NCBI GenBank assembly: GCA_927362715.1
Contig: CAKMIX010000005.1
Location: 1 to 64,000 of the forward strand
DNA length: 64,000 nucleotides
Reading direction: 5' to 3'
From: an uncultured Clostridia bacterium
GTDB taxonomy: Bacteria; Bacillota; Clostridia; Oscillospirales; Acutalibacteraceae
Shown here: in pieces, positions 41,611 to 58,096 of the stretch
Position numbering within the stretch: the stretch's first letter is position 1
How the letters are laid out: each line of letters begins with the position of its first letter
Translations under genes and position numbers: made by a program
The notes under the pieces: generated by a model
The model's input: the letters and a program-made list of their open reading frames with translations, nothing else
Told to the model about the DNA's origin: nothing
Databases searched by the model: none

Positions 41611-42963
41611 TCACATGGTCTGCTGCCAAGTCTGTTCTTCTTCGTGATCGTCCTCGGCGTGGCCTTGGGCGATTTTCTTTTGCTGCTTCTTACGGAGTGT
41701 TTTCCTGTCTGTATGCGGGAGCATGGTGGTGCTGTCCATCACGGGAGCAGCAGGCTGAGACTGCTCCAGACGGTATCCAAGCCCCACCACAGCAGAAGCA
41801 ATGCTGCTGTCCCCATCAGCAGGACCGCCCATGTGGGACCATCCAGGTGCGGCAGCCGCAGTTTGGGCAGTCTGATGCCGTGCAGAGAAAAATGCTTCTC
41901 TTTCCGTTTCCCAGCCTGTTCGTTCATCTGCTCCAGATGCTTCACCGCTTTCAGAAGCTCCTCCATCTGCGTCCGAGTCGGGAGCTGCGCCAGCAGTTCG
42001 CTGGTCTTCTTGAGATGTGCGGTCTGTCTCTCCGCATGATACCCCAGCGCGCAGAGGTCGCTCAGCAGATCCTCCCACTCCGCTTTCGTGGGATGCACTT
42101 CGGGAGGCGGTATCAGCTCCTGCGCCGGAGGCTGCGTAGTCTGTACCATCTGTGTAGGTCGGTTCTTCTCCAACAGCTCGTCCATAGATAATTTCTTCTC
42201 TGATCCTGAATTCATATTCCATATTCTCCTTCAGATATTTGTCCCCGAACAGCAGGCGGTCACGGCACTGCCAGCCGCTGGGTGTGGTGTAGGTGATATT
42301 CCGCCGGGAGGTTTCCCAGCGTACCTTGTAGCCCTCGCTCTCCATCAGCGCAATAAACTCCTCACGGTTAGAGGCGTGGCGCATACAGTCGTTGATGATA
42401 TTCATGAGCTGCAGTTTTTTGCTCTGGCCACGGGCGGCCGTATGATACTCGCCAACCGTCATAGTCTTCGTTTTCTGCTTCCTATCCTTGGGCTGGAACA
42501 CAGGGAGAGAAAACTCCATACAGACCTGATCGTTGCGCTGCCGCAGTTCCTGGAGCTGCTCCTTTGCGATGTGCAGCTTCTTTCCTGTATCGAAGTTAAC
42601 GGAGTTGATGAGGAAGTGGGAATGAATGTGTTCCCGGTCTGTGTGGGTGCAGACCAGAACTTCATAGCCCTCATAGTACTCAGCCAGCTTCAATGCCGCT
42701 GCATGGGCGGTGACAGGGTCGACCACTTCGCCTTTGGGGAAGCTCTGCACCATGTGGTAGAACAGCACGCCGTCAGTTTTGTGATGCAGCCGCTTGGTAG
42801 TCATGAAGTCCGCGTAGACAGATTCCGGCTGGCAGTTGATGCCTGTAACCAACTGCTGCCCCTCAAACTCAGTTTTCTTGTCCTGCATGGTGTACCGCAT
42901 CACGGCTCCCATACATCCGTTGGTCTGGCCCCGCTTGTAATTGGTGAAGCTGATAATCGCCAT
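41611..42963 (-). CDS. Relaxase/mobilization nuclease (MOBP-like)
   Basis: A 450-residue relaxase. The N-terminal catalytic domain begins AIISFTNYKRGQTNGCMGAVM; the metal-binding histidines are in HIHSHFLINSVNFDTGKK; a Tyr near residue 24 (MRYTM) is the likely nicking residue. From about residue 275 the sequence becomes Ala/Gly/Ser/Glu-rich and of low complexity, because a second gene (41739-42215) uses the same DNA in another frame. The final segment (HAEDDHEEEQTWQQTM) again looks like the conserved end of this relaxase family, so the frame is open to the end for a reason. Confidence 0.88.
   Translation of the reverse strand: MAIISFTNYKRGQTNGCMGAVMRYTMQDKKTEFEGQQLVTGINCQPESVYADFMTTKRLHHKTDGVLFYHMVQSFPKGEVVDPVTAHAAALKLAEYYEGYEVLVCTHTDREHIHSHFLINSVNFDTGKKLHIAKEQLQELRQRNDQVCMEFSLPVFQPKDRKQKTKTMTVGEYHTAARGQSKKLQLMNIINDCMRHASNREEFIALMESEGYKVRWETSRRNITYTTPSGWQCRDRLLFGDKYLKENMEYEFRIREEIIYGRAVGEEPTYTDGTDYAASGAGADTASRSASHESGVGGSAERPLRAGVSCGETDRTSQEDQRTAGAAPDSDADGGASESGEASGADERTGWETEREAFFSARHQTAQTAAAAPGWSHMGGPADGDSSIASAVVGLGYRLEQSQPAAPVMDSTTMLPHTDRKTLRKKQQKKIAQGHAEDDHEEEQTWQQTM
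41739..42215 (-). CDS. Membrane-anchored protein nested within the relaxase gene
   Basis: A 158-residue protein read in a different frame wholly inside the relaxase gene. It has its own ribosome site (AAGGAG ten bases before ATG 42215). It begins MNSGSEKKLSMDELLEKN, has a Pro/Gln-rich stretch (QTTQPPAQELIPPPEV), a helical region (LLKAVKHLEQMNEQAGKRKEK), and ends in one long or two short membrane segments (WAVLLMGTAALLLLWWGL). Composition is protein-like while the relaxase frame here is low-complexity, so both frames appear to be used. It may anchor the relaxosome at the membrane; that is inference. Confidence 0.75.
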   Translation of the reverse strand: MNSGSEKKLSMDELLEKNRPTQMVQTTQPPAQELIPPPEVHPTKAEWEDLLSDLCALGYHAERQTAHLKKTSELLAQLPTRTQMEELLKAVKHLEQMNEQAGKRKEKHFSLHGIRLPKLRLPHLDGPTWAVLLMGTAALLLLWWGLDTVWSSLSLLLP

Positions 42964-43023
42964 TCCTCACCACCGCTTTCGTTCAAGGATCAACCGAACA
43001 GCAGCGCAGAGTTCAGAGAACGC

Positions 43024-43278
43024 CTAGCGTACACCGTCCAGATTGACCACCGTGACGCGTCCCATGTGCGCCAGAGTAACGAGCTGATTCAGATTTCTGC
43101 CGATGGACTTCAGCTCCTTGAGCACTTCTTTTAGTCCATCGACGACCACTACCTGCTTTCCCAGACAGCAGGCTGTCACATAATCGCTCATGGACATTCC
43201 GGAGTGTTTCGCCAGTTCTTTGATGGTCTCCCGGTCTGCGGATGCCATCCGGGTGCTGAATTTGATATCTTTTTTCAT
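43024..43278 (-). CDS. mobC: MobC-like relaxosome accessory protein
   Basis: An 84-residue protein. It begins KKDIKFSTRMASADRETI, a ribbon-helix-helix-like segment (IKELAKHSGMSMSDYVTACCLG), then the MobC block LKSIGRNLNQLVTLAHMG. MobC assists the relaxase in opening DNA at oriT. The start at 43278 has GGAGG seven bases upstream; the long frame upstream is not translated. It is followed by the relaxase 60 bases later. Confidence 0.85.
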   Translation of the reverse strand: MKKDIKFSTRMASADRETIKELAKHSGMSMSDYVTACCLGKQVVVVDGLKEVLKELKSIGRNLNQLVTLAHMGRVTVVNLDGVR

Positions 43279-43480
43279 GTCGTTTCCTCCAGTCTTTCGT
43301 AAAAATGGGGTGTGGGGCAGCGCCCCGCAAACAAGCGGAAGGCGGGCGGCGGCTTTGCCGACGACCAGACAAACGCGATGCTGGCCACCTCCAAGGAGGT
43401 GATTTCCCCGCACCGGACACCCACGCTCCTCCTTCGGCCACAAACGGCCCAACACAGCGTTTTTCTTGCTTTGCGGGGGT
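43279..43480. other. Candidate oriT region upstream of mobC
   Basis: A 200-base gene-free gap upstream of mobC, where oriT usually lies in MOBP elements. It holds a perfect 16-bp palindrome (CACCTCC-AA-GGAGGTG, 43386-43401), GGGGC-A-GCGCCCC near 43316, and a distant inverted pair (GGTGTGGGG near 43309, CCCCGCACC near 43407). I cannot place the nic site. Confidence 0.4.
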
Positions 43481-44551
43481 TTACTCGCCATACTCGGAAA
43501 TCGCCCGCAAATCGCTGCACAGCGCCCCGGCAGGGTCAACAGGGTCGACCGCCGGGACACCCTGGGTATCGTCACTTTCGGCACGCTGCAGCTCAATGAG
43601 CCGCCTTCCGTTGCTACGGCGCACCACAGCCGAAATGCCGATTTTCCTTAGTGCGTCAAGGTTTTGCAGGATTTGTCGGGATACTTTCTTGGGTGACATG
43701 CGCTCCACCCCCACAGGGTCGATTCGTTCAGACAGCTCTGTGGGAGTGCCGATAAATGTTGTTCTGCTGCTCATAAATGCAGAGAGGAGAACAACGATTT
43801 GTCCCTCCAATAGCTCCGGTTGTGTCCGGCTGTCCGACACCAGCTCCCACACATTTTCACCGTTGCGCTCCAGTGTCAGCTCTCGGTATTTAATGTCACG
43901 ACCAATACAGGAGAGCTTTGCCCTGCCGCTTCCCCGCCGTTCCTCCACCAGCGTGAAGCTGGAATCCACCGCACCGCTGATGGCGGTGGTACCGGAGATG
44001 CGATTGAACACATCGTCAGCGCTCTCCTTGCGCAGATGATGGATCAGCAGGATGGCGATGCCGTGGGTATCTGCGATCCGTTTCAACACAGACAGATCGC
44101 GGTAGTCGTTTGCGTAGGTTGCGTCGCGAGCCGGACGAACCATCTGCAGCGTGTCGATGATAACCAGTACCGTATCCGGGTGGGCGGTGAGGAATGTTTC
44201 CACCTGCTCCTCCAGCCCCTGTCCAATGAGGGCGCACTCCGTGCAGAAGTGGACGCTACTTGGCGCATCCTCGGTGATCTCAAAGAGCCGGTTCTGGATA
44301 CGGAGAACGGAATCCTCCAGGCAGAGATAGAGAGTGGTGCCTTGCTTCACAGACATCCCCCAGACGGGTTCGCCCTTGGCCACCATGACGGACAGCCACA
44401 GGGCCAGCCAGGACTTACCCACCTTGGGGGAGCCCGCAAGGATGTGCAGCCCCTGGGACAGTAGCGTGTCCACCACGAAGTTGAGCGGCGTCAGCGGCAG
44501 GCTCATCAGGCTCTCGCCGTCGATGGTTTGCAGTCGTTTTGTTTTACTCAT
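43481..44551 (-). CDS. RepA-like AAA ATPase/helicase (RecA fold)
   Basis: A 356-residue RecA-fold ATPase of the AAA_25/RepA type. Walker A is LAGSPKVGKSWLAL, Walker B is TVLVIIDTLQMV, and LIHHLRKESADD with ISGTTAISGAVDSS follow, as in hexameric RepA helicases. A C-terminal winged-helix-like segment lies near residues 245-330. It probably serves replication or strand unwinding of the excised element. I chose ATG 44551 because AAGGGG is nine bases away; the ATG at 44560 is too close. It is first in the mobilization operon and divergent from the DUF6076 gene. Confidence 0.85.
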   Translation of the reverse strand: MSKTKRLQTIDGESLMSLPLTPLNFVVDTLLSQGLHILAGSPKVGKSWLALWLSVMVAKGEPVWGMSVKQGTTLYLCLEDSVLRIQNRLFEITEDAPSSVHFCTECALIGQGLEEQVETFLTAHPDTVLVIIDTLQMVRPARDATYANDYRDLSVLKRIADTHGIAILLIHHLRKESADDVFNRISGTTAISGAVDSSFTLVEERRGSGRAKLSCIGRDIKYRELTLERNGENVWELVSDSRTQPELLEGQIVVLLSAFMSSRTTFIGTPTELSERIDPVGVERMSPKKVSRQILQNLDALRKIGISAVVRRSNGRRLIELQRAESDDTQGVPAVDPVDPAGALCSDLRAISEYGE

Positions 44552-44701
44552 TAGGATCATCCCCTTTTAAAAAAAGATAAGGACAGAACCACACGGCCAT
44601 CGTGGCTCATGTCCTTTCACTTGATTATTGGGGGAATTTTGATAAAATGAGAATATCGCAAGACAGGCAGAAAACAGATATAGGACAGAGGGGGCGGCCC
44701 T

Positions 44702-45826
44702 ATGCCACTGGGTATCCAACAGAACAACAACCTCCTGCATCTGACAATGGATGTCTGGCAAGATCAGATCTTTTTCAACGAGACCGTCTACCCGGCCGGC
44801 CACTTTGCCGCTGAACTGTTGAATGTTCCCGAGGAGACTATGCGGGAACTGGTCACCCACGGGGGCGCCATCAGCCATCAAGTGGAGGCCCTGGCCCTGG
44901 CCGGGCGAGGTGTATTTATCAAACTGCTGGACGGGACCCGCGCCTCTTTGGAGAATCTGCTGGACGCCCTGTGGCACTGTCCGCCGTACAGCCTGATGGA
45001 CAAAGGGCAGGAGCAGCACACATTGGAGGTGCTGTTTTCCCCGGCATCCCACAATGATCTGCTGAAGCCAGCTTCGCCCGTCCGGGAATTTTTCTTCCGC
45101 TATCTGGTCGCCGCCTTCAGCATCCCCCTGGGCATCCAGCACTTCGCCGTGGCGGCACGATATTTTGAGGAGGGCTATCTGCGGCGGCTGAAAAAGCGGA
45201 CGGAGACCTTCTTCGCCATGGCTGCTCACGACTGCTTCAACAGCGAATGGTTCTGGAGTATGATGCGCGATTTGCCGGTACCGGATGTCGAGCCATTCAC
45301 CATCACACCGGATCTGAGATCCTCCTATGTCTTTGCCCGACACCCGAAACAGGAAAAGGAAACCGTATTTGTGAACCGGTATTTCTTTGACCATGCCATC
45401 AGCTTCTACATTTTTGACCTGATGAACGGACTGCAGCACGGCCATGCGCCCAGCCGGTGCTGCGGCTGCGGAACATACTTTCTCACCACCAACGGCCATA
45501 TGCCTAAATACTGCGATGGCATTGCTCCCCAGGACCCCCGCATGACCTGCCGGCAGTACGGCGCCATGATGCGGCAGAAGGAGCAAAACAAACAGCACCC
45601 GGTCTACCGCCTGTTCACCACCCGCACCAACACCATCCGCAAGCACCACCAGAGAGGAAAAATCTCCGACGAGCTGCGCAATGAAGCGCTGTATATAGCG
45701 GAGAGCCTGCGGGATAAGGCGCTCATGGACAACGACTATGCCGCCAGCGGCTATGCAAAGGACATGGAGCAGGAAGCGATCTATGCTCAGGCGAGAGCGC
45801 GCATTGCCCGGGAGAACCGGCCATGA
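44702..45826 (+). CDS. DUF6076-like protein with cysteine-rich motif
   Basis: A 374-residue protein. The N-terminal 250 residues are alpha/beta and featureless. Near residue 257 there is a zinc-finger-like block, CCGCGTYFLTTNGHMPKYC, with a further Cys (MTCRQYG), followed by a helical, basic C-terminus. It recalls the CGNR/ABATE-type RNA- or DNA-binding fingers and the DUF6076 family of Clostridia mobile elements. It overlaps the sigma-like gene by four bases (ATGA), so the pair is coupled. Function unknown. Confidence 0.65.
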   Translation: MPLGIQQNNNLLHLTMDVWQDQIFFNETVYPAGHFAAELLNVPEETMRELVTHGGAISHQVEALALAGRGVFIKLLDGTRASLENLLDALWHCPPYSLMDKGQEQHTLEVLFSPASHNDLLKPASPVREFFFRYLVAAFSIPLGIQHFAVAARYFEEGYLRRLKKRTETFFAMAAHDCFNSEWFWSMMRDLPVPDVEPFTITPDLRSSYVFARHPKQEKETVFVNRYFFDHAISFYIFDLMNGLQHGHAPSRCCGCGTYFLTTNGHMPKYCDGIAPQDPRMTCRQYGAMMRQKEQNKQHPVYRLFTTRTNTIRKHHQRGKISDELRNEALYIAESLRDKALMDNDYAASGYAKDMEQEAIYAQARARIARENRP

Positions 45827-46788
45827 GCATGTACCACTGTGACACTCCCTGCCCCAGCAACGAGCAACTGGCCCAGCGCATACAGGACGGCGATCCGCAG
45901 GCCGCACCGCTCCTGCTTTCCCAGAATGAGGGATACCTGACCATGCTGGCCACAAGCTACTGCGAGCAGTTTTCTCAGGACTTTCTGGTGGACGACCTCA
46001 AGCAGGAGGGGGCGCTGGCACTGCTGGATGCGGCGACGCGGTTTGATTTCTCCTATGGAACAAAGCTGCTGACCTATGCGACCCCCGCCATTGAGACGGC
46101 CATGCGGGACTGCGCCGCCCAGGGTTCTTTCTCTCTGTCGCTCCCGATGGACCGTTACCGCCAGCTGCGCCAGGTAGCTTTCCTCTATGCCACCCATGAG
46201 GGGGACATAGAAACAGATCTTCTGCCGGCCATTCAAGAGAAGCTGACGGTCTCCGCCAAAGTCGCCAGGCGTCTGCTGGAAGAATACCGTACCGTGTTTC
46301 AGGTCGAGTGTTTGGGCGAGGGCGTCTTTGACCTGGGGTATGGCGGCGACCCAGCCAGGGCCTATGACCGCTTCGTGCGGCGGACGCTGCTCCTCCAGCG
46401 TATGGAGGAAGTGCTGAGCCCCAGAGAGCTGAATTTGGTGCGCTGTTATCTGGGGATCGGCCAACCTGATGAACAAGGGATGACCTTTCAAGAATTGGCT
46501 ATCCGGCTGAACTACAACGGCCCCAGTGGTGCGGAGAAGGCGTATAAGAGTGCCATTCGGAAACTGAGGAAGCAGTTGAACGGCGGCACTTACGGCCAGT
46601 GGCTCTTCATCCAGAAAGCCATTCACAGGGCCAGAGCGGAGGCAGAGGCTGATTCTGGTTACTATGTGCCGCCGCAGACCACCTGGCTGGACGAAAAGGA
46701 ACTGGCGGAGCGATTTCTCTGTGAAGTCGTTTCGCTGATCCATGTCCATGAGATATTCAGCGACGCATTAGAGCCAAAAACAGAATAA
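45823..46788 (+). CDS. Sigma-70-like RNA polymerase sigma factor of the mobile element
   Basis: A 321-residue protein. Region 2 is visible at about residues 55-95 (DDLKQEGALALLDAATRFD, then LLTYATPAIETAMRD), the core-binding and -10 segment. Region 4 lies at about 195-250 (LSPRELNLVRCYLGIG ... MTFQELAIRLNYNGPSGAEK). Region 3 is poorly conserved. This is the sigma-70 layout, so it may direct polymerase to element genes. It is coupled to the DUF6076 gene and followed by a strong terminator. Promoters it uses are unknown. Confidence 0.75.
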   Translation: MSMYHCDTPCPSNEQLAQRIQDGDPQAAPLLLSQNEGYLTMLATSYCEQFSQDFLVDDLKQEGALALLDAATRFDFSYGTKLLTYATPAIETAMRDCAAQGSFSLSLPMDRYRQLRQVAFLYATHEGDIETDLLPAIQEKLTVSAKVARRLLEEYRTVFQVECLGEGVFDLGYGGDPARAYDRFVRRTLLLQRMEEVLSPRELNLVRCYLGIGQPDEQGMTFQELAIRLNYNGPSGAEKAYKSAIRKLRKQLNGGTYGQWLFIQKAIHRARAEAEADSGYYVPPQTTWLDEKELAERFLCEVVSLIHVHEIFSDALEPKTE

Positions 46789-46830
46789 GCAGTGCGGCAC
46801 CAGGCTTTGTCCTGATACCGCACTGCTTTT
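46789..46830. terminator. Bidirectional terminator between the sigma-like and DUF6550-like genes
   Basis: Arms GCAGTGCGGCACCAGG (46789-46804) and CCTGATACCGCACTGC (46811-46826), near-perfect, 6-base loop, then TTTTCATTT. It serves converging genes. Confidence 0.88.
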
Positions 46831-46833
46831 CAT

Positions 46834-47295
46834 TTATCCCATGATCCCGATTTTATTGCCGTTCTCGTACATATCCTCGGCGTATTCCGCATGGTTGGGT
46901 CCCTGGCTTTCTATCCAGCCGAAGCCTGGCACATAGACCATGTTGTCCGGTTCGCTGTCAGGTACCGGGGCAGGCTCCGGTTCTTGCTGCGGTGTGGCAT
47001 CCTGTTCAGAGGGAGCCTGTACTTCGCTCTCTGGGGGCGTTTGAGCAGGCGATGGCTCCGAGACAATGTCAGCTTCCTCGACCAGTTCCGGCAGTGTTGC
47101 TTCCGTCTTTTCTTCCTCTGGCGATATGACTTCTTCCATCTCTGCTATCTCCGGAATTTCGGGCTGTGTGGCGATTACAACGGCTGGCGTGGGCAGTGCG
47201 GGTGTTTCCCCGGCTGGTTGCTGCTGTGGCCACACAGCGGCAACCAGGGCCAGACAGGCGGCGAACACTGCGGCAGTGACGATTCGTTTCTTCAT
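46834..47295 (-). CDS. Exported Pro/Glu-rich protein, DUF6550-like
   Basis: A 153-residue protein with a signal peptide or membrane anchor (KKRIVTAAVFAACLALVAAV), a long Pro/Glu/Ala/Thr-rich stretch (PSPAQTPPESEVQAPSEQD and similar), and a short conserved-looking end (MVYVPGFGWIESQG ... NGNKIGIMG). The VPGFGWI-type ending is seen in DUF6550 proteins of Clostridia mobile elements. Function unknown. It overlaps the next gene upstream by four bases. Confidence 0.65.
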   Translation of the reverse strand: MKKRIVTAAVFAACLALVAAVWPQQQPAGETPALPTPAVVIATQPEIPEIAEMEEVISPEEEKTEATLPELVEEADIVSEPSPAQTPPESEVQAPSEQDATPQQEPEPAPVPDSEPDNMVYVPGFGWIESQGPNHAEYAEDMYENGNKIGIMG

Positions 47296-47612
47296 GGTTC
47301 TTCCTCCTTTCCAGACATGGAAAGAGCGCCCGATCTCTTCGCCGTACAGCGAGAGACTGAGCGCTCTTTTTCATATTGATTCATTTCCATGGAGAGCTGC
47401 CACGCCAGCTCAAATCCAGAGATAAAGCTGTCGATGGAGCGTTCCTCTGCCATCAAACTCTGGGCATCCATGATTCGTAGTACCAGCCGCCGTTCCGGCT
47501 TCTCCAGCACTTGAATGAGTGCCTGGTGGCATTCTTTCACTTCCTGCTTCTGCTCCGAAAACTCAGGCGGGGTATAGAAGCAGTCATACAGGGTCTTAAG
47601 TCGTGTTTTCAT
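47292..47612 (-). CDS. DUF6809-like hypothetical protein
   Basis: A 106-residue soluble protein, rich in Glu and Gln. It shares the segment IDSFISGFELAWQL with the protein at 2830-3129 (LDSFLVGFRLGAKM), and both fit DUF6809. I chose the ATG at 47612, eight bases after AGGAGG. It is co-transcribed with the DUF6550-like gene. Function unknown; occurrence in two unrelated elements of one window suggests a common accessory role. Confidence 0.6.
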   Translation of the reverse strand: MKTRLKTLYDCFYTPPEFSEQKQEVKECHQALIQVLEKPERRLVLRIMDAQSLMAEERSIDSFISGFELAWQLSMEMNQYEKERSVSRCTAKRSGALSMSGKEEEP

Positions 47613-47828
47613 GCGTTGCACCTCCTGGTAGCAACACACAATATCACAGGACGAGGGGAATAGCCAACAAAATATTTTAAAAATCACTTGTAAAGCAAAA
47701 AGCGTTTAGATTCGCGATAACTTTAATTTATACAATCGAAACAACTCGTGAAAAAGCGAAATGTGTTGAAAACAGATGTGGTTTGTAGTAGTATAATTTT
47801 ATAAATCCTTCTTATTCGGGGTGAAACC

Positions 47829-48062
47829 ATGAAAGTAACTTACAAAAAATTATGGGTCCTTTGCGCTGAACGAGAGATGAGCAAAGCTGAGCTTCGCAAG
47901 CGTGCAGGACTTTCTTCTGCTACTTTCACTAAACTTCGCAAAAATCAAGAAGTAAATCTATCGGTTCTCCTTAAAATTGCAGATGTTATGAATTGTAATG
48001 CAGGAGAAATGATGGATTTTATCAGAGATGACACATCGGCTTACAATTCCGAGTCGTTGTAA
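47829..48062 (+). CDS. Small XRE-family regulator of the helicase operon
   Basis: A 77-residue Cro/C1-type helix-turn-helix protein (LCAEREMSKAELRKRAGLSS ... VLLKIADVMNCNAGEMMDFI), of the YozG-like short type. It lies 21 bases upstream of the CoiA-like gene on the same strand and is first in the operon, so it is the likely repressor of the system. The AT-rich region 47613-47828 in front of it should hold the promoter (a TATAAT-like stretch near 47792), but no clear operator is visible. Confidence 0.8.
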   Translation: MKVTYKKLWVLCAEREMSKAELRKRAGLSSATFTKLRKNQEVNLSVLLKIADVMNCNAGEMMDFIRDDTSAYNSESL

Positions 48063-48083
48063 CAAGAACGAGGGTGACGAGGG

Positions 48084-49643
48084 ATGCCATTAACTCATGT
48101 ATGCGTGTGGGATTCTAAAATTGGATATCGTCGTATCACGGTAAAAGAGGCTTGCAAGATGTATCCCTATGGTGCATCAGCACGAAGCGGCCATTTTGTG
48201 TGTGAATTATGCGCACAAAATGTTTTACTTACCGCCCCTGGTATGAATGTTCAACACTTCCGTCATGATCCGGCCTCTCCCAATAAAGAATGCGACGAAC
48301 GCCAAGCCTCTTTTGATCCAAACTACGGTCGATCGCTACGAGCACTTAACAGCCATATAATGCCTTTGCGTCTTGTTGTAACAGGATCGATGTTTTCTCT
48401 ACAATTAGGGTTCTTCTACCCTCCAGACAACAAGGCACACTGCGACAAAATTAAGATAGCCGGAGATTCACACCAAGTTTATGAGTACTCGTTTGAGCGA
48501 ATTGAGCGGATTGGAACCACCTACTTGAGTGTTGGCTCTATTCCAAGCCAGATTTACTGTGTTGAATATATAAATGCTAATCCCGAATTAAGAAGATTTT
48601 GGTCCAACAATATACCGGGAATCAACCAGGCTGGCTCCTTCTTTGACGGACAAACTGGCCAGATTCTACAATCTGGCGGAAAGGCGTATGCCGGAAATTT
48701 CTATTATTTATTGCAACGGCATCCAATATATACTTTCCCTGCAGATATCGAAGCAATAGAAATAGCCAAAACGCGCGCAAACTCTTTCAATAGTTGGTAT
48801 TTATATAAAATTTGCATTAAAAGGTTTTCAGAACGCTCCGCAAAGTTTTTCCTTAAATATGCTATTTTCTTAACTGAAAAACCAACCAAATTCTATCCTA
48901 TATGGCCAGCATACATCCAGAATCCGTATTTTATATACCACAACTCAGCGGAATTTTACTTCTATTTATGCGGTGATGATGCCGAACTGAAATCATACCC
49001 CGCAACTGCGAATGTGCTGGGTACTCAAGACGGGAAATTATACAAGCTCTATACCAGGGAAAGAGAACAGTTAATCTCACTTGGAAAATCTGGAGCATTG
49101 GGATTCTCCTATTTGGTAAAGCAACCCCTGCGCAAAAAGGCACCGTTACCAGCAATAATCATATCTGATCATTCTGGCAACACGCTAAATGAAGAGAGCT
49201 ATGTAAAACTTCCTAAATTAAAGTGCATATCAGTTTCTTGCCCGTATGATGGGAAGGCTGTGGTTCAAAGAAATGGTAAGACTGAATATATCTACAAGCT
49301 TTCTGGCGAGGAGCAATTAACAATCGATGGACTATCATTTGGCACAGAGATACATTTTTATCAAGGCTGCGACTACATCCGCTCCATTCGTTTTGAGAAG
49401 GAAACCGTCAACATGGATGTTATGGTGCTGGATGCTGTACTTGTCAAAAAATTGAGCTCTTGCTCTGGCCCGATGATTCCTGTAACGCATGCGGTTGGAA
49501 GTTTTGTCAGTAAATTCTCAAAATATCCCCAAACACAAAAGTGGCTCTGCATGGCTTTGCGGCGAGGCGAAATTTCCCGCACAGCTTTACATTTGCTCAG
49601 GAAAACCATTCAAAATAATTTTGGGAGGGATAATAATGGTTGA
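48084..49643 (+). CDS. CoiA-like zinc-binding protein of putative defence system
   Basis: A 519-residue protein. The N-terminus resembles the zinc-binding start of competence protein CoiA: C40, C43, then H58 and H61 in VQHFRHD and C70 (CELCAQNVLLT ... KECDERQ). CoiA proteins have a restriction-endonuclease-like domain next to it; here the following region (SLRALNSHIMPLRLVV) is a possible equivalent, but I cannot point to catalytic residues. The rest is beta-rich and unrecognised. Codon use is AT-rich, unlike the element backbone. It overlaps the next gene by eight bases. Plausible role: DNA binding or cleavage with the helicase. Confidence 0.6.
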   Translation: MPLTHVCVWDSKIGYRRITVKEACKMYPYGASARSGHFVCELCAQNVLLTAPGMNVQHFRHDPASPNKECDERQASFDPNYGRSLRALNSHIMPLRLVVTGSMFSLQLGFFYPPDNKAHCDKIKIAGDSHQVYEYSFERIERIGTTYLSVGSIPSQIYCVEYINANPELRRFWSNNIPGINQAGSFFDGQTGQILQSGGKAYAGNFYYLLQRHPIYTFPADIEAIEIAKTRANSFNSWYLYKICIKRFSERSAKFFLKYAIFLTEKPTKFYPIWPAYIQNPYFIYHNSAEFYFYLCGDDAELKSYPATANVLGTQDGKLYKLYTREREQLISLGKSGALGFSYLVKQPLRKKAPLPAIIISDHSGNTLNEESYVKLPKLKCISVSCPYDGKAVVQRNGKTEYIYKLSGEEQLTIDGLSFGTEIHFYQGCDYIRSIRFEKETVNMDVMVLDAVLVKKLSSCSGPMIPVTHAVGSFVSKFSKYPQTQKWLCMALRRGEISRTALHLLRKTIQNNFGRDNNG

Positions 49644-51699
49644 TACCGAAGTTTCATTCACTTCGTTATGTTATATTGAAGACCACCATGATGATCGCGT
49701 ATGGTTGCATCGTTTGGCAGACATTGAAAACGGCAAGTTACATATACCGTTTAAATCAGATCGTGAGGATAATCGTTTTGAAAATCGTGATTGTTGGTAT
49801 CAGTATCAGTTTCAATACCGAGATGGTGGACCATCTGCCATCGGAACAATAGGCGTATGGGAATGGAGCGCCATTCCCAAGCCCGATAACCCTGCAATCG
49901 ATCAGATACTGTCTTATTATGTTCAAGATGTTTGCCCCGTTCGCATTGTGCCCCTCAAAGCAAAATCGATAGAGGATATCGTTGCACAACTCAAAACTGG
50001 AACTGTATATACCAAAACATATTTATGCAACACACTTTTTTGCTACGAATCGAAGGTTGGACAACTTTCGGGAGTGCTATGCCGTGCAAATGAATTCGAT
50101 ATTGTGGATCGATGCGCAAAACTTTCGGAAACTATCTACTACCTGCCCGTCTACACAGTTTCCTACGGGGATATCTATAATTGGGATGATCGTAACCTAA
50201 GATTTCTAAAAACACTTCAGGTGGGAGAGCCTTCTGGATATGTTTCAATAGGAAATACACACGAGGTTATTCGTACACTCATTCTTGAACGCACCACATG
50301 GCCTTTGTTTAAGGAGTGTATTGGTGCCACCAAGGCAGAATGGAAACATTGCAAACTTCTTCTTGAGAAGATTTGCGGTGAATCTTTGTACGACGCGATT
50401 GTTCAAAAACTAAATTGTACTCTGGACCAAGCAAAACAGGCAGTTGATGATTTTGTTAATCGAGCAGATGCACTGATTAAGGTCGGCGATATCGATGTTA
50501 ATGTGTTGGCTGAAATTGCAAAGAATCACGATGAATTAAGAGAATTATGCGAAAAAGCCGTATCCGTGGAATGGCATAATTCTCATGCTGCTGAAATTGC
50601 CAAAGCTGAGGCAGAAGTTTCAGAAATGGAAGAAACAATATCCATTGCAAAAAAGCAGCATAGTGAACTACTTGCAGAAATTGCCACAAAACAAGGTGAA
50701 CTTGATCGGTTACTTGCAGAGATAGCGCAATATGAATCGATTGGAAAAGAAACGCTGGTCGCAGTGCGCCAGAAAATTGCTGACGCGCAAAAAGATATGG
50801 CAGGATTCATTGCTGATATTTCTGTTTTTCTGCCTCAGTCAAATGCAACTTTGCCGTATGGGAATCCCCCTGCCTCATGGCAATACAGCAGTACCAGTGG
50901 CCAATATTCTGATGAGGATATTGAACTCGCAGAAAGCTGGCGCAATGAATATGATGCAATCTATCAGAATTTGTCATGTGCGTTGGGCATTGAACCAGAC
51001 TTCTGCTCAATGCTCACTGCTTTTCTGTATGCAACCCATATCAACAATGTGCCAACTTTGATTGCAGGCCCTGGGGGACAGGATATTGCTGAGGTACTGT
51101 CTGTTTCGATGTACGCAAACGGAGCAGGACAATTGACTTTAGGAGATGAATGTGACCTTTCTATAGTGGAAAGAATCAGCGAGGCTGACGATTCTATTGT
51201 GTCGGTTCAAAATATGTTCGGAAAAGGGTGGACGGATGCATTACCGCAGAAGTTTACAAGACTCAAAAAGCAGATAATCTGGACCCATCCATATGTCGAG
51301 GATATGCTTATTGAGCCGAAAGGCCTTTATAATTACATGCTCCCCGTCCTGAGTGAATGTTTTATAGGAAGTTTACCTGCTCTCGAGACATGGCCAAGTA
51401 AACGCGCTGAGAAGTTCCAACCATATGTTTCTGAGGAAAAACAGTCTCTCCGGATATCTGCATTTAAGCGTTTGGGCCTTAGCAAACTCCTATTGGGCCA
51501 GTTAACTCGTGTCCTGTCCGATGCAAAATGCATTTTGGAGAATCCCGCAAAAGATAAGGACTTGGAACTGCTCTTTGGTGTGCTTCCTCTCTGCGTACTT
51601 ACCGGGAGATTGGATGTCTTAAAGGATGTTATTGAAGGCGAGAGCGGAATCTCCAGTTCGGTAAAAGCTGAAGTTGCAAGATATATTGAGGAAGAGTGA
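49636..51699 (+). CDS. Coiled-coil protein with P-loop-like segment, putative defence system
   Basis: A 687-residue protein I do not recognise. Residues 1-310 are mixed alpha/beta. About 318-398 is a strong coiled coil (AEAEVSEMEETISIAKKQ ... ELLAEIATKQGELDRLLAEI). After it, IAGPGGQDIAEVLS at about 475-488 looks like a degenerate Walker A (no Lys-Ser/Thr), and IIWTHPYVEDMLIEPKGLY follows. The start at 49636 has GGGAGG seven bases upstream. It overlaps both neighbours by 8 and 4 bases. It may be an inactive or divergent AAA-type partner of the helicase. Confidence 0.6.
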   Translation: MVDTEVSFTSLCYIEDHHDDRVWLHRLADIENGKLHIPFKSDREDNRFENRDCWYQYQFQYRDGGPSAIGTIGVWEWSAIPKPDNPAIDQILSYYVQDVCPVRIVPLKAKSIEDIVAQLKTGTVYTKTYLCNTLFCYESKVGQLSGVLCRANEFDIVDRCAKLSETIYYLPVYTVSYGDIYNWDDRNLRFLKTLQVGEPSGYVSIGNTHEVIRTLILERTTWPLFKECIGATKAEWKHCKLLLEKICGESLYDAIVQKLNCTLDQAKQAVDDFVNRADALIKVGDIDVNVLAEIAKNHDELRELCEKAVSVEWHNSHAAEIAKAEAEVSEMEETISIAKKQHSELLAEIATKQGELDRLLAEIAQYESIGKETLVAVRQKIADAQKDMAGFIADISVFLPQSNATLPYGNPPASWQYSSTSGQYSDEDIELAESWRNEYDAIYQNLSCALGIEPDFCSMLTAFLYATHINNVPTLIAGPGGQDIAEVLSVSMYANGAGQLTLGDECDLSIVERISEADDSIVSVQNMFGKGWTDALPQKFTRLKKQIIWTHPYVEDMLIEPKGLYNYMLPVLSECFIGSLPALETWPSKRAEKFQPYVSEEKQSLRISAFKRLGLSKLLLGQLTRVLSDAKCILENPAKDKDLELLFGVLPLCVLTGRLDVLKDVIEGESGISSSVKAEVARYIEEE

Positions 51700-52724
51700 A
51701 CGATATGATAAACGACCTAATTGTTTCAATTGGAAGGCAATTAAATATTCCGCAGTCAGATGACAACGAATGGGTTTGTCGGGTCGTTTATAGTGTTGCT
51801 GGGCAAATGGCTCTCGCTTCGCTTTGGGATCACACCGAGGATGGAGGTTCAGTTTCTATTCAGCACTTCAAAAGCAGAATTGGCCAGATTTTTGATGCTT
51901 ATGAAGGCATTTATCCGAAGATTGGATTTCTCCTCCCGCATGACAAGACGGATTTGATTGAGGAAATGTACTCTATCTATCTGCGAAATGGGTTCTTTTA
52001 TCATTCCGCTTATCAAATATCCCCAACCGCTCTTGCAACTGGAGGAAATGGGGATCTTGTTCTTCACAGAGGTATTTCACCTGACTCGAAGTTATTTATG
52101 AGCGGATTGGGTTTCTATTCCGTTCAAACTTCAACTTCCGACAGGACAATATCATCAATGTTTGGTTTGCAGAAGCAGTCGTTTGAAAGCTATCTCGAAG
52201 AACTGCTGGCGCATTGCGAATGGGAACAAATAGAATGGCCAGATAACTCAGAATTTCTGCGGCTTGATCCTCCATTTAAATGGGGGTATTGGCAACAGAT
52301 TCCCGAAAAAAATGACCATATATCCCTTGCAAGATATGGTGAACCAAATAAAATTTTTGTATTTTATCGATACAGTAATGGGGTATTTCTGAATACACCG
52401 ATTCCAGAATGGAGAATGCGGGACTATTTTTCGAATGTTCCAGGCAACCACGGCGAATATAGAAGGATTGCAATATCACTTCTAAAAAAACATGGAACAC
52501 TTCCAGAAATCAAAACGAAGGCAAAGGGAAGTCTGATAGAAATCAAACTTGGCTATCGTCTGCCACCGTCGGAAGAAAACTTCTTCAAACTCTATAGTTG
52601 GCCTGTGCGATATGATTTTACATCAAAAACGCCCCAAGTCTTTACAAGAATGATGGCAAGGCAAATCTATCCTATGTTCAAACATGAGTTGGAATCAATG
52701 GGTTACTGCTTTGTGGAGGAATGA
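51696..52724 (+). CDS. Unknown protein of putative defence system
   Basis: A 342-residue soluble protein with no signal peptide, membrane segment or motif I can name. It is aromatic-rich (many Tyr, Phe, Trp), for instance FKWGYWQQIPEKND. The GTG at 51696 overlaps the upstream stop (GTGA); an ATG at 51705 is an alternative. It is followed directly by the helicase gene. Position between coupled genes of the operon says it belongs to the system; its role is unknown. Confidence 0.6.
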   Translation: MNDMINDLIVSIGRQLNIPQSDDNEWVCRVVYSVAGQMALASLWDHTEDGGSVSIQHFKSRIGQIFDAYEGIYPKIGFLLPHDKTDLIEEMYSIYLRNGFFYHSAYQISPTALATGGNGDLVLHRGISPDSKLFMSGLGFYSVQTSTSDRTISSMFGLQKQSFESYLEELLAHCEWEQIEWPDNSEFLRLDPPFKWGYWQQIPEKNDHISLARYGEPNKIFVFYRYSNGVFLNTPIPEWRMRDYFSNVPGNHGEYRRIAISLLKKHGTLPEIKTKAKGSLIEIKLGYRLPPSEENFFKLYSWPVRYDFTSKTPQVFTRMMARQIYPMFKHELESMGYCFVEE

Positions 52725-52726
52725 TT

Positions 52727-55700
52727 ATGTCCAATGGTGCAAACGGAGTTCACTTGCAACTGCGTGAAGCTCTGGAAAACTATATAAAGTCGCAATATTT
52801 TGGGAAGTCGCCTATCTTGCTGTCCGCTGCACAAAATAAGCTGAATCAAGAAGGTGTTCTTTATCAAAAACCGTATGTTGAATCATCACCTGCTTACAAA
52901 AGTACGACAAACGGAATCCAGTCATCTCCCAAGTTACCTGATTGGCTGAAAGACTATTTTAAGGCGCTATCAGACGCCAATCTTGGCGTATACCCATCAC
53001 CTTTTTGTCACCAAATTTCCGCTTTGGAAGCGGCATTTGAGGGTCAGGATCTGTTTGTGTCAACAGGTACAGGCTCTGGTAAGACGGAATGTTTTATGTG
53101 GCCCTTGATGGCAAAACTTGCTTCAGAAGCAAGAAATAACCCTGATAGTTGGGCTATGCGTGGTGTCCGAACGATTATCATGTATCCTATGAACGCCCTG
53201 GTTTCTGACCAGATTAGTCGTTTGCGTCGTTTGATTGGCGATCCAGACCACCGATTTATAAATATATTCCGCACCGCATGTGGAAATAATTCCCGCCGGC
53301 CTCAATTCGGCATGTATACCGGCAGAACTCCTTATGCAGGTAAGGAGCCCCGACGTAGTGAGGACCGTTCACTTGCGGCAACATATTCTCGTATGGTTAA
53401 TCCTGAAAACGACGAAGAAAAAGCTTTTTTAGAGAAACTCATTAAGGACGGAAAACTACCGGTCAAAGAAAATTTTGATGAATTTCTTGAAAAACTCTAT
53501 AACGGAAAACATATTCCGAACGATGAGGATGCAGAACTGGTAACTCGTTTTGAAATGCAGCAATTCTGCCCCGATATTTTGATTACAAACTACTCCATGC
53601 TTGAATATATGCTTCTTCGGCCAAGAGAACATAAAATATGGTCAGATACTCAGGCATGGCTAAATGCAGATCCGAATAATAAGCTTCTATTTGTCATTGA
53701 TGAAGCGCATATGTATCGTGGTTCTGCAGGCGGCGAGGTATCATTGCTCATACGGCGTTTATTCCACCGTTTGGGCATTAATCGCAGTAGAGTTCAATTT
53801 ATATTGACTACCGCAAGTATGCCCAACAATAACGAGAATGACCGGAAGGCCGTCAGGACATTTGCAAATGAATTGACTGCATCTGACGACATGCATCCGT
53901 TCTGTTATCTCACTGGCGAACGAGAGGAAATAGGTAGCGGAAGTGCAGTTCATATTCCCTTCAGTAAATTTAAAGAATCTATACCGGATGCGTTTGAGGG
54001 CGATGATCCCGAGCGCCTTATGGCACTCAATGGATTTTGGACAGGTGTTGCCAATAGTCCTGCTCCATTCGTTTCCTCTGAAGATGCATACCAATGGCTA
54101 TACGACCACTTGGTAGACTATGTACCATTCTGCCAAATGTTCAAACTTTGCCGCGGAACAGCAGTCTCTTTACAAGAATTAGCGGAGTCTATCTTTCCTG
54201 ATAACAGTTTAGAAGATGCCCTGCACGCTGTCAGTGTTATGCTTTCAATCGCACCTTTGGCGCGAAGCGAAAGTGGAAGTGTTCTGTTTCCAGCAAGAAT
54301 GCATATGCTTTTTCGTGGAATCAAGGGCGTTTACGCTTGTACTAATCCAGACTGTCCTCATTCGCACACGGAAAATGGATTAACATTGGGTGAGGTCTAT
54401 TTTTCGGATGGTAATCTTACTTGCAAAGAATGCGGAAGCACGATTTATGAGTTATACAATGATCGCCGGTGCGGTAGTATTTTCTTCAGAGGTTTTGTGC
54501 TGAAGCAAGATTTTGAAGCCAGAAGACGTACATACCTCTGGCATCAACCTGGTATGATAAATGAAGATGAGGTTAAAGAAATACATCTTTTCATTCCGTC
54601 TGCAGGTTATCGATTGCCGGAACGTCAAGGACAGAATAAAATTTCGCCTTGCTACTTAGATGTTCAAAGCGGCTTCATCGACTTTTCTGATGATTCCTTG
54701 GATGGAAAGCAGGGCATCAGAAAGCTGTATTATAGCGGCTTCACAGCAAAGGCCCGACCGGACATTCTGACATTTTCCACCTGTCCGCATTGTCGGCATG
54801 AACTATCTAAGATGCAACTGACCTCTTTTAATACAAGAGGCAACCAGTCCTTCTTCAATCTGATTAAAGCGCAATTCCAAGCTCAACCTGCGGTTCTAGG
54901 GAAAACAGGCGATCCCGATCGACTTCCAAACGAGGGGCGGAAAGTTCTGCTTTTCTCAGATAGCCGCCAACGTGCAGCTAAGCTGGCAAGAGATATGTCT
55001 GACGCATCTGATATGACTGCGGCCCGACAGCTTGCGGTGCTTGCCATTGATCGAATGGAACACGAAGTTGCAGAGCAGTCCATGAACTATTTCTATGACT
55101 ACTTTGCAATGGTAGCTGTGGAGCATCATGTTCAAATTTTCCATGATAGCGAGACAGAAAAGCAACGAGAACGATTAATTGAGCATGGAACACAGGCACT
55201 GAAGAATTACACACGTGCAAGGAAACGTGGGCAACAGTACACTCCTCGCTTCACCATTGATAATGCGCCCACCCAAATGAAGGAACAGCTCATTCGTTTT
55301 TATTGTGGGGGATATAATACGCTGGTTGATTCAGCCCTCAGTTGGATAGAACCTACGGATGCTGCGAAATGGGATGCACTTGATGCGTTAGAGGAAGCAG
55401 GGATCGACGTAAGTGAGGAAGAATTCATGGAATTCTTTAACGCATGGATTCTTTCAACTTGTGACACTTCGGTGATCCTTGGACATACCATCCCGGATGT
55501 GATTCGTGAAAAAGTGCGTCCAAACTATGTGGGATATGGCATTGATAAGAACAAAAAGTTTTCTACCGATATCCGCGAAATAATGGGATGGAGCGATAAT
55601 GATTCTGTTGCTGCAAAGTGGAGCCAAATTTTGCGGGAAACATTTATGGATGAAGGTTCGTCTTCCAACGGAAAGTATTATATTGACCTTTCTCGTATAA

Positions 55701-57988
55701 AACCGCGCTTTGATTTAGAACACACGTGGTTCCGTTGTGAACGCTGCTCAGAGCTCACGCCGTATTTACTGAAAGGGAAATGCCCAAGTTGTCAGTGTGA
55801 AAAGACTCATCCCATGACAACGGAAGAAATTGATGCATTGGATTTTTGGCGTAAGCCCATTGAGGATGCGCTTCAAGGTGACACCATTCGTGTAATTGAT
55901 ACCGAAGAACATACTGCACAACTTTCCCATAAAGATCAGCGGGATGAACTCTGGTCCAGAACAGAGCAGTATGAGCTACGGTTTCAGGATTTTTTGCAGA
56001 ACGGCGAAGCGCCTGTCGATATTCTAAGCAGCACGACTACAATGGAAGTAGGTATCGATATCGGATCGTTGGTTGCTGTCGGTTTGCGGAATATTCCTCC
56101 TATGCGTGAGAATTATCAGCAGCGTGCTGGTCGTGCAGGCCGTCGCGGCTCAAGTCTGTCTACCATTGTTACTTTTTGCGAAGATGGACCACATGATTCA
56201 CTGTACTTTTCCAACCCAGTACCTATGTTCAGAGGCGATCCCAGAAAACCGTGGATTGATATCAGCAGCGAGAAAATCACCCAGCGACATCTTGGTATGG
56301 TTGCACTTCAAACCTATCTGAGAGAGAAATCTAACAGTTTGGATGCTATTCCCGCCATTGAATTTCTGGATGAACACCTACAGCCTTTCAGCAGCTTTTT
56401 GGCAATCTTTGAAATTAGCAAAGATGATATTCTTGTGCCCGTTGGATCCAAAGGTGCATTAGGTAGCTACAAAGATGAACTTGAAAAATCTCTGTCGGCG
56501 CTGAAGCAAAAACGAGATGATCATCCTGAATTGTTTGAAACAGATGATAGCAGTGATTCTGGGAAAAAATCGCTTTTGGATGCGCTTTATGAAGAGGGTG
56601 TTATACCTACCTATTCTTTCCCCAAAAATGTTGTTAGCACATATATTTCCGATGTCAGTGGGAAGGTAAAATATCAGGTTGAACGAGGGTTGGATGTTGC
56701 AATTGGTGAATATGCGCCTGGCAGAGCGATTGTTGTTGATAAGACGACCTACCAGATTGGTGGTTTGTATTATCCCGGAGGAGAGCGGAGCGAAAGAACT
56801 GCTGCATCTCCAGCCAAAGCATTTATTCAGGATGCAAGCTACCGAAAAAGCATTCGTACCTGCAGTCAGTGTGGTTGGTTTGGCTTAGAAGAGGATAACC
56901 CTGATACTTGTCCTTTCTGCGGCAATAAAGCATTGACAAATATGTTGCCAATGCTACGCCCATGGGGATTCGCACCACGAAATGCCACATCCATTGAAAC
57001 GGCACAATTGAATGAAGAATACTCAGCAACTCAGCAACCTCTATATTCCACACTACCCGATGCAGATGATGTTACGGCGGTTAATGGATGTGCCAACATC
57101 CGAATGGCTGTTCGTCCCAATCAGCGAATCATCATGCTTAACAATGGTGTTAGTGGTAAGGGATTCACAATCTGCTGCGACTGCGGTGCTGCAATGCCCG
57201 GAGATGACCCCGCGGTTCTTAGGGATGTTTTGCGTCCGTATAGATCCAAATTCATCAAAACACGTTGCAAGCATAGCGATACAATCAATGTGAATCTTGG
57301 ATATGACTTTGTTACAGATATGCTTGTTCTGGAATTTGCTTTGGATCGACAGCAGATCGATATTAATCCCACCAGGAATTCTTGGCTTAACCGTGCTGGA
57401 CAGTCTCTTGCGGAAGGCCTGCGCTTGGCAGCATGTCAGGAATTGGACATTGAATTTACAGAGCTTGTGACTGGTTTTCGTGTTCGACAAAATCGCAATG
57501 GAGATTTCGTTGATATCTACTTGTATGATAGCCTTTCAAGTGGTGCAGGTTATGCTGTTAGCATTGAATCCTCTATTCGACAGCTACTTACCAAAACTCG
57601 AGAACTTCTCGAAAGCTGTACCTGTGACAGTGCTTGCCACAGGTGTCTAAAGCACTATCGAAATCAATACATCCACAGCGTTCTCGATCGTAAGGCTGCA
57701 CTTGATTTATTGAACTGGGGAGAAACAGGGGCAAGAGTATCTGCAATCCCATACGAAAAACAGCAGTATCTTTTGAAATCCTTGGAACAAATTCTCCAGA
57801 TTTCCGGCATACATATCGATGTTAATCACGAATCAGTTTGGGCAGAGGGGCGCTATAGCAAAAAGAAAGTAGTAGTATATCCGGCTATGTGGACAAAGCC
57901 ATTAGAAGAAAACACCATTTTTGTGAGTGATGCGCATTTGAAATATGCTAAACCCTATGCATTAAAAACGATTTTAGACAGCCTATAA
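52727..57988 (+). CDS. Large DEAH helicase with C-terminal DUF1998/MZB-type region (DruE-like)
   Basis: A 1,753-residue superfamily 2 helicase. Walker A is STGTGSGKTECF (about 113-120); motif Ia IIMYPMNALVSDQ; DEAH in FVIDEAHMYRGSAGGE (about 325); motif III TTASMP; motif V STTTMEVGIDIGS; motif VI YQQRAGRAGRRG (about 1,130). A zinc ribbon interrupts the core (CTNPDCPH ... CKECGS), another lies at about 1,379 (CSQCGWFG ... CPFCGN). The end carries LSSGAGYAVS and CTCDSACHRCLKHYRN, the four-Cys DUF1998/MZB region. Size and layout match DruE of Druantia; MrfA-type helicases are shorter. ATG 52727 is seven bases from GGAGG; 52721 is an alternative. Confidence 0.85.
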   Translation: MSNGANGVHLQLREALENYIKSQYFGKSPILLSAAQNKLNQEGVLYQKPYVESSPAYKSTTNGIQSSPKLPDWLKDYFKALSDANLGVYPSPFCHQISALEAAFEGQDLFVSTGTGSGKTECFMWPLMAKLASEARNNPDSWAMRGVRTIIMYPMNALVSDQISRLRRLIGDPDHRFINIFRTACGNNSRRPQFGMYTGRTPYAGKEPRRSEDRSLAATYSRMVNPENDEEKAFLEKLIKDGKLPVKENFDEFLEKLYNGKHIPNDEDAELVTRFEMQQFCPDILITNYSMLEYMLLRPREHKIWSDTQAWLNADPNNKLLFVIDEAHMYRGSAGGEVSLLIRRLFHRLGINRSRVQFILTTASMPNNNENDRKAVRTFANELTASDDMHPFCYLTGEREEIGSGSAVHIPFSKFKESIPDAFEGDDPERLMALNGFWTGVANSPAPFVSSEDAYQWLYDHLVDYVPFCQMFKLCRGTAVSLQELAESIFPDNSLEDALHAVSVMLSIAPLARSESGSVLFPARMHMLFRGIKGVYACTNPDCPHSHTENGLTLGEVYFSDGNLTCKECGSTIYELYNDRRCGSIFFRGFVLKQDFEARRRTYLWHQPGMINEDEVKEIHLFIPSAGYRLPERQGQNKISPCYLDVQSGFIDFSDDSLDGKQGIRKLYYSGFTAKARPDILTFSTCPHCRHELSKMQLTSFNTRGNQSFFNLIKAQFQAQPAVLGKTGDPDRLPNEGRKVLLFSDSRQRAAKLARDMSDASDMTAARQLAVLAIDRMEHEVAEQSMNYFYDYFAMVAVEHHVQIFHDSETEKQRERLIEHGTQALKNYTRARKRGQQYTPRFTIDNAPTQMKEQLIRFYCGGYNTLVDSALSWIEPTDAAKWDALDALEEAGIDVSEEEFMEFFNAWILSTCDTSVILGHTIPDVIREKVRPNYVGYGIDKNKKFSTDIREIMGWSDNDSVAAKWSQILRETFMDEGSSSNGKYYIDLSRIKPRFDLEHTWFRCERCSELTPYLLKGKCPSCQCEKTHPMTTEEIDALDFWRKPIEDALQGDTIRVIDTEEHTAQLSHKDQRDELWSRTEQYELRFQDFLQNGEAPVDILSSTTTMEVGIDIGSLVAVGLRNIPPMRENYQQRAGRAGRRGSSLSTIVTFCEDGPHDSLYFSNPVPMFRGDPRKPWIDISSEKITQRHLGMVALQTYLREKSNSLDAIPAIEFLDEHLQPFSSFLAIFEISKDDILVPVGSKGALGSYKDELEKSLSALKQKRDDHPELFETDDSSDSGKKSLLDALYEEGVIPTYSFPKNVVSTYISDVSGKVKYQVERGLDVAIGEYAPGRAIVVDKTTYQIGGLYYPGGERSERTAASPAKAFIQDASYRKSIRTCSQCGWFGLEEDNPDTCPFCGNKALTNMLPMLRPWGFAPRNATSIETAQLNEEYSATQQPLYSTLPDADDVTAVNGCANIRMAVRPNQRIIMLNNGVSGKGFTICCDCGAAMPGDDPAVLRDVLRPYRSKFIKTRCKHSDTINVNLGYDFVTDMLVLEFALDRQQIDINPTRNSWLNRAGQSLAEGLRLAACQELDIEFTELVTGFRVRQNRNGDFVDIYLYDSLSSGAGYAVSIESSIRQLLTKTRELLESCTCDSACHRCLKHYRNQYIHSVLDRKAALDLLNWGETGARVSAIPYEKQQYLLKSLEQILQISGIHIDVNHESVWAEGRYSKKKVVVYPAMWTKPLEENTIFVSDAHLKYAKPYALKTILDSL

Positions 57989-57992
57989 TATG

Positions 57993-58034
57993 AATAGCCG
58001 CAAGCCATCACACGATAGCTTGCGGCTATTCCGT
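57993..58034 (+). terminator. Terminator of the helicase operon
   Basis: Perfect 13-base arms AATAGCCGCAAGC (57993-58005) and GCTTGCGGCTATT (58018-58030) with a 12-base loop, then CCGTTTGTT. Confidence 0.8.
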
Positions 58035-58096
58035 TTGTTCCGTACCGGTAGTGCCCCTGGGGATTCAGTTTGTTTCCCTATGAGATGGAGCCCTTT

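Follow-up and report, generated by a model that had tools for sequence, protein, structure and literature searches.

Druantia type I is described as a system of five genes, druA to druE, and in the consulted parts of the papers no function is assigned to DruB, DruC and DruD (PMC12458937, PMC8565338, PMC13192584, PMC7251935, PMC13316683). DruA belongs to type I by definition (PMC7251935, PMC13316683). Bell et al. predict that the C-terminal nuclease domain of the type I DruE is inactive and that the type III DruE carries an active nuclease (PMC12458937). For type III, DruE has been described as an effector that is both helicase and nuclease, and DruH is taken for the likely sensor (PMC13192584). 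Here we analysed an operon in a 64,000-nucleotide stretch (the window) of contig CAKMIX010000005.1 from an uncultured Clostridia bacterium of the gut. The sequence comparisons indicate that the operon is probably related to Druantia type I, though diverged and without DruA, and that a mobilizable element carries it as putative defence cargo. It is filed as a variant of type I and not as a canonical member because DruA, a defining feature, is missing.

The annotated locus of E. coli strain E62 (DruABCDE, L120) served as the type I reference. The operon resembles it in having homologues of DruB to DruE in the same order and tightly coupled, and DruE1 is the best PADLOC model for both helicases (1726.6 bits for the window, 2464.5 bits for E. 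coli). It differs by the absence of DruA, by an XRE gene ahead of druB, by the high divergence of DruB, DruC and DruD and by a DruE that falls into a separate clade. With type III the operon shares a DruE-family helicase as the engine and a partner thought to be the sensor (PMC13192584, PMC13316683), whereas no DruH match is listed for it and the type III nuclease is predicted to be active (PMC12458937). Type II and type IV CoCoNuT systems also have a coiled-coil protein with an inactivated NTPase beside the DruE helicase, as far as described in the consulted part of PMC12458937. They differ in that no DruM, DruF, DruG or DruL match is among the PADLOC matches listed for the proteins of the operon, and the DruE2 models reached only 643.7 bits on its helicase.

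Homology of the four large proteins to DruB, DruC, DruD and DruE

Related loci were gathered by their DruE and comprised the best 80 of 568 relatives on genome contigs, 16 viral contigs and four plasmid records. With iterative profiles seeded with the window proteins, DruB was found in 70, DruC in 73 and DruD in 77 of the 80 genome loci, and most of the loci without a B, C or D match were broken off by contig ends. L085 has a protein at the druC position that stayed under the detection threshold, and L087 has 2.3 kb upstream of druE without a match. A single diverged DruC sequence is a poor probe, since the window DruC retrieved only its own protein from a phylum sample of 299 genomes; a plasmid search with it gave no match.

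The homology to E. coli was tested with profiles rebuilt from the DruA-less clade only (see below), which were searched against E. coli DruA to DruE, 250 shuffled decoys and unassigned open reading frames (ORFs). The top ranks were taken by E. coli DruB (34.6 bits, E=6.3e-7), DruC (30.6 bits, E=5.5e-6) and DruD (47.5 bits, E=7.2e-11), and the runners-up stayed at or below 10 bits except for the druC-position protein of L085 (26.5 bits). The alignment of DruB to E. coli DruB with hhalign had a probability of 95.5 over 251 columns, and the zinc finger of DruB falls within the stretch common to both. The genes also follow one another as B-C-D-E, just as in E. coli.

When the PADLOC models were applied to the window proteins, DruE1 (PDLC00013) matched the helicase over its whole length (residues 3-1751), the best DruE3 model reaching 535.3 bits. 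The 342-residue protein matched DruD1 (PDLC00008, E=1.6e-10, residues 5-319), the 519-residue protein matched DruB1 weakly (E=0.0086), and the 687-residue protein had no DruC match in PADLOC. Taken together, the profile searches show that DruB, DruC and DruD have diverged homologues in the 519-, 687- and 342-residue proteins and that the helicase is a full-length type I DruE. Thus, DruB, DruC, DruD and DruE of type I were found in the operon and DruA was not. The first-pass annotation had placed the three partners, described as a CoiA-like, a coiled-coil and a 342-residue protein, outside the known Druantia set. It had also named clear homology of the partners to a described subtype as one outcome that would speak against its claim, and this homology is what the hidden Markov model profiles found.

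The window DruE has a Walker A motif with K119, the DEAH motif at residues 325-328 and an MZB (MrfA Zn-binding) domain, in accordance with its earlier reading as a DruE-type DEAH helicase with an MZB end. Both motifs are present in 73 of 73 DruE proteins of the clade. A scan of 93 DruE sequences found Walker A in 87 and DEAH in 88, and the six exceptions were distant helicases on viral contigs outside the clade.

In DruB, the comparison of invariant residues placed an N-terminal zinc finger at C40, C43, H61 and C70. The predicted model (predicted local distance difference test score, pLDDT, 87.8) starts with this zinc finger, followed by beta-rich domains and C-terminal helices. Foldseek with this model found low-TM (template modelling score) beta-sandwich proteins only, and no nuclease was recognised in DruB by Pfam and the fold search. 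A CoiA-like nuclease was rejected, since CoiA_N was the only such match and lay below the cut-off, and the fold search gave only the low-TM beta-sandwich proteins.

DruC consists of an N-terminal beta domain (residues ~1-175), helices, a coiled coil (~318-385) and an alpha/beta part (predicted model with a pLDDT of 82.8 and a predicted TM score of 0.49). From the model there is a weak indication that the last of these parts may be degenerate P-loop-NTPase-like. No Walker A motif was found in any of 87 DruC ORFs (85 distinct sequences) or in E. coli DruC, and DruC was rejected as an active NTPase on this ground. The earlier description as P-loop-like is thus left with weak AAA+ fold hits and no Walker A motif. 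Among the matches listed, those of the DruC profile to solved structures were all weak and for the most part covered the coiled coil. DruC, too, showed no recognisable nuclease.

The DruC proteins (in L015, L016, L020, L028, L046 and others) fall into three size classes: ~520-640 residues (Dam-linked, without most of the N-domain), ~650-740 residues (window type) and ~880-1030 residues. The longest class has an extra N-terminal part of ~215-250 residues that scores as coiled coil, and the N-domain of the window DruC corresponds to residues ~216-403 of long forms with 884-942 residues. Since the long forms carry an extra part and the Dam-linked forms lack most of the N-domain, DruC is modular.

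A clade of DruE helicases without DruA

The DruA family PF14236 (DUF4338) had no match in the genome of the window, in a search in which no control matched either; in the searches of other genomes, 4 of 4 DruA-bearing plasmid records matched as positive controls. Among the named genomes with a related DruE, 0 of 46 and 2 of 34 had a match, so that 78 of 80 had none; G490 and G329 likewise gave no PF14236 match. The two positives (L118 and L119) are short proteins on contigs other than that of the cassette. The L119 protein has 293 residues and adjoins an ORF read by eye as an IS66-type transposase, and the L118 protein has 279 residues and is cut by the contig end. The cassettes of these two genomes (L029 and L055) are both cut at contig ends. 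Because PF14236 was above the cut-off in 3 of 394 sampled genomes of the order, the family is detectable yet rare there. A purpose-built DruA profile found eight loci, none among the 80. A DruA hidden elsewhere in the genome could therefore be rejected in the case of the window and of 78 among the 80 genomes, with the two short PF14236 proteins remaining.

In a tree of 93 DruE sequences (FastTree, LG), the window sits in a clade of 73 with a support of 1.0, which was unchanged when E. coli was added. The clade includes L029 and L055 as well as the viral contigs L092 and L093, for which DruA was checked on the contig DNA only. Next to it stand, among others, E. coli, Pseudomonas and Haloplanus, which have DruA, and L082, L085, L086 and L091, which have none; the grouping with them had a support of only 0.366 once E. 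coli was added. In 62 of the 73 members the full set druB-C-D-E lies in order on a single strand, and none of the three gaps exceeds 100 bp in any of the 62. The adjacency of the four large genes in other genomes was thereby confirmed. In the other 11, L030 is rearranged, druD of L048 is split, and the others are incomplete or interrupted, on contigs that are short or cut. Of the earlier proposal of a new subtype or system, the new system falls with the homologous partners, and what survives is the absence of DruA from the clade. No description of a type I system without DruA turned up in our literature search by title and start of abstract, a search that left Doron et al. 2018 and DefenseFinder outside its scope, and absence in print is unproven.

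One subclade is Dam-linked (e.g. L064) and shares the DruA-less B-C-D-E arrangement with the window. PADLOC type I models already fit its full-length proteins: DruB and DruD of L064 match PDLC00003 (536.8 bits) and PDLC00008 (530.2 bits) over the full length. In contrast, the window DruB and DruC fall outside the models that fit L064. In these Dam-linked loci an adenine methyltransferase directly follows druE.

Several arrangements differ from the common one. In L030 (10001-20619) druE is on one strand and druD-C-B on the opposite strand, druB is in two ORFs in the metagenome-assembled copy L013 (4627-6179), and L027 (4071-22236, Anaerobiospirillum succiniciproducens) has a tandem pair of druB-C-D-E cassettes, the second cut in druE by the contig end. 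DruA, a protein of 952-996 residues and DruE are found together in L005 (4771-15520), L094-L096 and L098, with DruA downstream of DruE in L095; for the large protein of L005, PADLOC gave no match and the DruB profile no alignment, and a 360-residue protein there is of the DruD1 type. In L006, L080, L082 and L100, related helicase genes follow druE by 0-339 bp, with NERD and UvrD-type domains in L082 and UvrD_C_2 and SLFN-g3-type helicase matches in L080.

Divergent blocks and genomic context of the operon

The operons of the window, L012 and L057, which are 99% alike in DruE, were compared by DNA identity in 150-bp windows. The identity falls to about 56-63% in the DruC N-domain and in the DruB zinc-finger region, and the edges are sharp. 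Directly downstream of the druC segment it is 97-100%, and within the segment L012 and L057 are 99-100% identical to each other. In protein terms, residues 1-175 of the window DruC are 64% identical to L012 and the remainder 99%. In the druB segment L057 diverges from both the window and L012. Over residues 1-100 the window DruB shares 60% identity with L057 and 83% with L037, whereas over the rest of the protein the order is reversed (94% and 59%).

Among close pairs 27 were found, one of them incomplete, and 26 were scanned for identity dips. This gave a partial replication, as L037 and L013 (druB split) dip in the matching DruC domain and L046 and L052 where DruB begins. The dips of long DruC forms were rejected as belonging to the same N-domain because the alignment puts them in another extension. 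The divergent blocks suggest a natural exchange of recognition modules, read from few events.

The five genes, their positions and their overlaps and gaps were confirmed by the coordinates: 21 bp separate the XRE gene from druB, druB and druC overlap by 8 bases, druC and druD overlap by 4 bases and druD is followed by druE after 2 bases. This tight coupling on the plus strand agrees with a single operon. Its GC content is 42-45% against ~53-59% in the element backbone and in the host DNA flanking both sides, as had been noted at first pass. The XRE protein is related to the N-terminal helix-turn-helix (HTH) part fused to several C5-methyltransferases beside related cassettes (blastp against all ORFs). 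The inverted repeat behind druE is likely a terminator, because L057 carries another hairpin-like sequence at this position. The repeat lies where a single terminator had been noted earlier, but its T-run is poor and the terminator scan made no call there.

Cargo of a mobilizable element had also been proposed and was confirmed by a serine recombinase, a MobA/VirD2-type relaxase and the empty site. In the congeners L132 and L133, the bases matching window positions 39432 and 58094 are adjacent, which sets the bounds of the element (Table 1). A third congener, L134, is also without the element, with less exact edges. L012 has the operon and its left neighbour in common with the window up to the L012 contig end (45837-58056). 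The stretch in common with An85 (L057) is just 48084-58003, which shows that this XRE gene does not always accompany the four genes. Between a sigma-like gene and the operon, DUF6550 and DUF6809 proteins are encoded at 46837-47295 and 47295-47687 on the minus strand.

Table 1. Positions of the operon genes, of segments within them and of the surrounding element in the window
Feature	Positions	Strand	Basis
Mobilizable element, 18.7 kb, operon at right end	39433-58093	.	Empty site in L132, L133
Large serine recombinase of the element	39536-41251	-	Recombinase, Resolvase, DUF4368, Zn_ribbon_recom
Relaxase of the element, MobA/VirD2-type	41614-42963	-	PF03432, 117.8 bits
XRE/Cro-C1 regulator (HTH_26), 77 aa	47829-48062	+	PF13443, 68.7 bits; blastp against all ORFs
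druB homologue, 519 aa	48084-49643	+	PADLOC DruB1, E=0.0086; lineage profile to E. coli DruB, 34.6 bits
druB segment (zinc-finger region), approximate bounds	48130-48374	+	56-78% DNA identity to L057, 93-98% after
druC homologue, 687 aa (longer listed ORF starts 49489)	49636-51699	+	Lineage profile to E. coli DruC, 30.6 bits
druC segment (N-terminal beta domain), approximate bounds	49640-50165	+	57-78% DNA identity to L012 and L057
druD homologue, 342 aa, GTG start	51696-52724	+	PADLOC DruD1 PDLC00008; E. coli DruD, 47.5 bits
druE helicase, 1753 aa (1755 aa with start 52721)	52727-57988	+	PADLOC DruE1; Pfam DEAD, Helicase_C, MZB
Inverted repeat 3' of druE, likely terminator	57992-58031	+	18-nt arms, 94% complementary

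Proposed mechanism and rival explanations

By inference from its components, the operon would work like Druantia. DruE would be the engine: driven by ATP, it would load on invading DNA, translocate on it or unwind it and so block its replication. DruB, with its zinc finger and beta domains, and the N-domain of DruC may recognise the trigger. We propose that the natural exchange in DruB and the DruC N-domain, with DruD and nearly all of DruE kept constant, occurs because these parts are the recognising ones. The coiled coil and the dead NTPase-like part of DruC could form a scaffold that couples recognition to DruE, and DruD could be an adaptor. Cutting of DNA by the operon is not expected, unless by DruD, because neither DruB nor DruC has a recognisable nuclease and that of the type I DruE is predicted to be inactive. 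The nearest tested analogue of such a DruE engine is the type III pair DruE/DruH, as far as described in the consulted part of PMC13192584.

Several observations weigh against this reading. The kinship of DruB and DruC to the E. coli proteins is weak and partial, covering mainly residues 21-101 of 548 in DruB, and the hhalign probability for DruC is just 47.6. The AAA-like view of DruC comes from Foldseek E-values of 3e-3 or worse (best BrxL, E=3.4e-3), and DruD could be catalytic. Exchange is seen mainly in one trio, 2 of the 26 pairs are free of dips, and many dips are in other parts, DruD and DruE included. The dips of the long DruC forms near residues 61-213 (L068/L028, L040/L020, L093/L052 and the L031 pairs) fall in a different N-terminal extension. 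The DruC N-domain is not the least conserved part across the clade (mean pairwise identity 0.251 vs 0.169-0.208). In seven Dam-linked DruC proteins that were checked only 15 to 46 residues align with it, so the N-domain is not required by every DruA-less system.

A different reading, which we consider rather unlikely, concerns the methyltransferases found beside related cassettes. DruB to DruE would attack DNA that lacks the methylation of a partner, and the window copy would use a methyltransferase elsewhere in the genome; DISARM is thought to be gated by partner methylation. In a subclade of 22, ten loci have a C5-methyltransferase and type II endonuclease pair immediately upstream of druB, seven with an Eco47II-type endonuclease (in L050 the endonuclease only, at the contig start) and three with an EcoO109I-type one. 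Eco47II and EcoO109I both have GGNCC-like specificity. In L062, which belongs to the same subclade, druE is followed at a distance of 128 bp by an HsdM-type gene, and in a subclade of 16 a D12-type adenine methyltransferase follows druE by 1-132 bp in nine. Two C5-methyltransferases, two endonucleases and two D12 enzymes were assigned by Pfam and the remainder by blastp. The window genome itself has C5-methyltransferase matches on contigs C19 and C10. Against such gating, no methyltransferase adjoins the window cassette, and the motif scan found a co-directional one within 150 bp in only 1 of the 35 members of the window's subclade (L026, Eco57I-type), in which several contigs are cut close to the cassette. 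Moreover, the upstream pairs resemble complete type II systems able to act alone.

It is improbable that the operon is a decayed or incomplete type I system that lost druA and no longer defends. DruA is part of the defined system (PMC7251935, PMC13316683) and the window genome has none, but DruA is missing across the whole supported clade, in which most members keep the complete and ordered genes. In addition, near-identical copies (DruE 99%) are found in Pseudoflavonifractor An85 (L057) and Galloscillospira, and the dN/dS values (0.11-0.31 against L057 and 0.13-0.25 against L012) show purifying selection between the close copies. Very improbable is a new defence system that shares just a DruE-type helicase and has unrelated partners, since the weak DruB and missing DruC hits in PADLOC stand against clade-only profiles whose top hits, at 30-48 bits, are the E. 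coli proteins DruB, DruC and DruD, and against the gene order of E. coli, and such partners were rejected.

Returning to a DruA-less relative of type I, a broader view is conceivable but on the unlikely side. The DruA-less DruBCDE systems would be a distinct, mostly gut-Firmicute Druantia class, in which parts of DruB and DruC that are optional or can be exchanged would do the recognising for the DruE engine. Two sister lineages would be wired to methyltransferases of different chemistry, including those of the unrelated Eco47II- and EcoO109I-type systems, and the outcome would be a DISARM-like defence that is aware of methylation and whose sensors can be swapped. That methyltransferases recur next to such cassettes hints at a connection of Druantia with restriction-modification. 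A large clade that functions without DruA would, if true, define a smaller core of B-C-D-E, and what Druantia senses becomes testable with natural alleles whose main differences lie in the N-domain of DruC and around the zinc finger of DruB.

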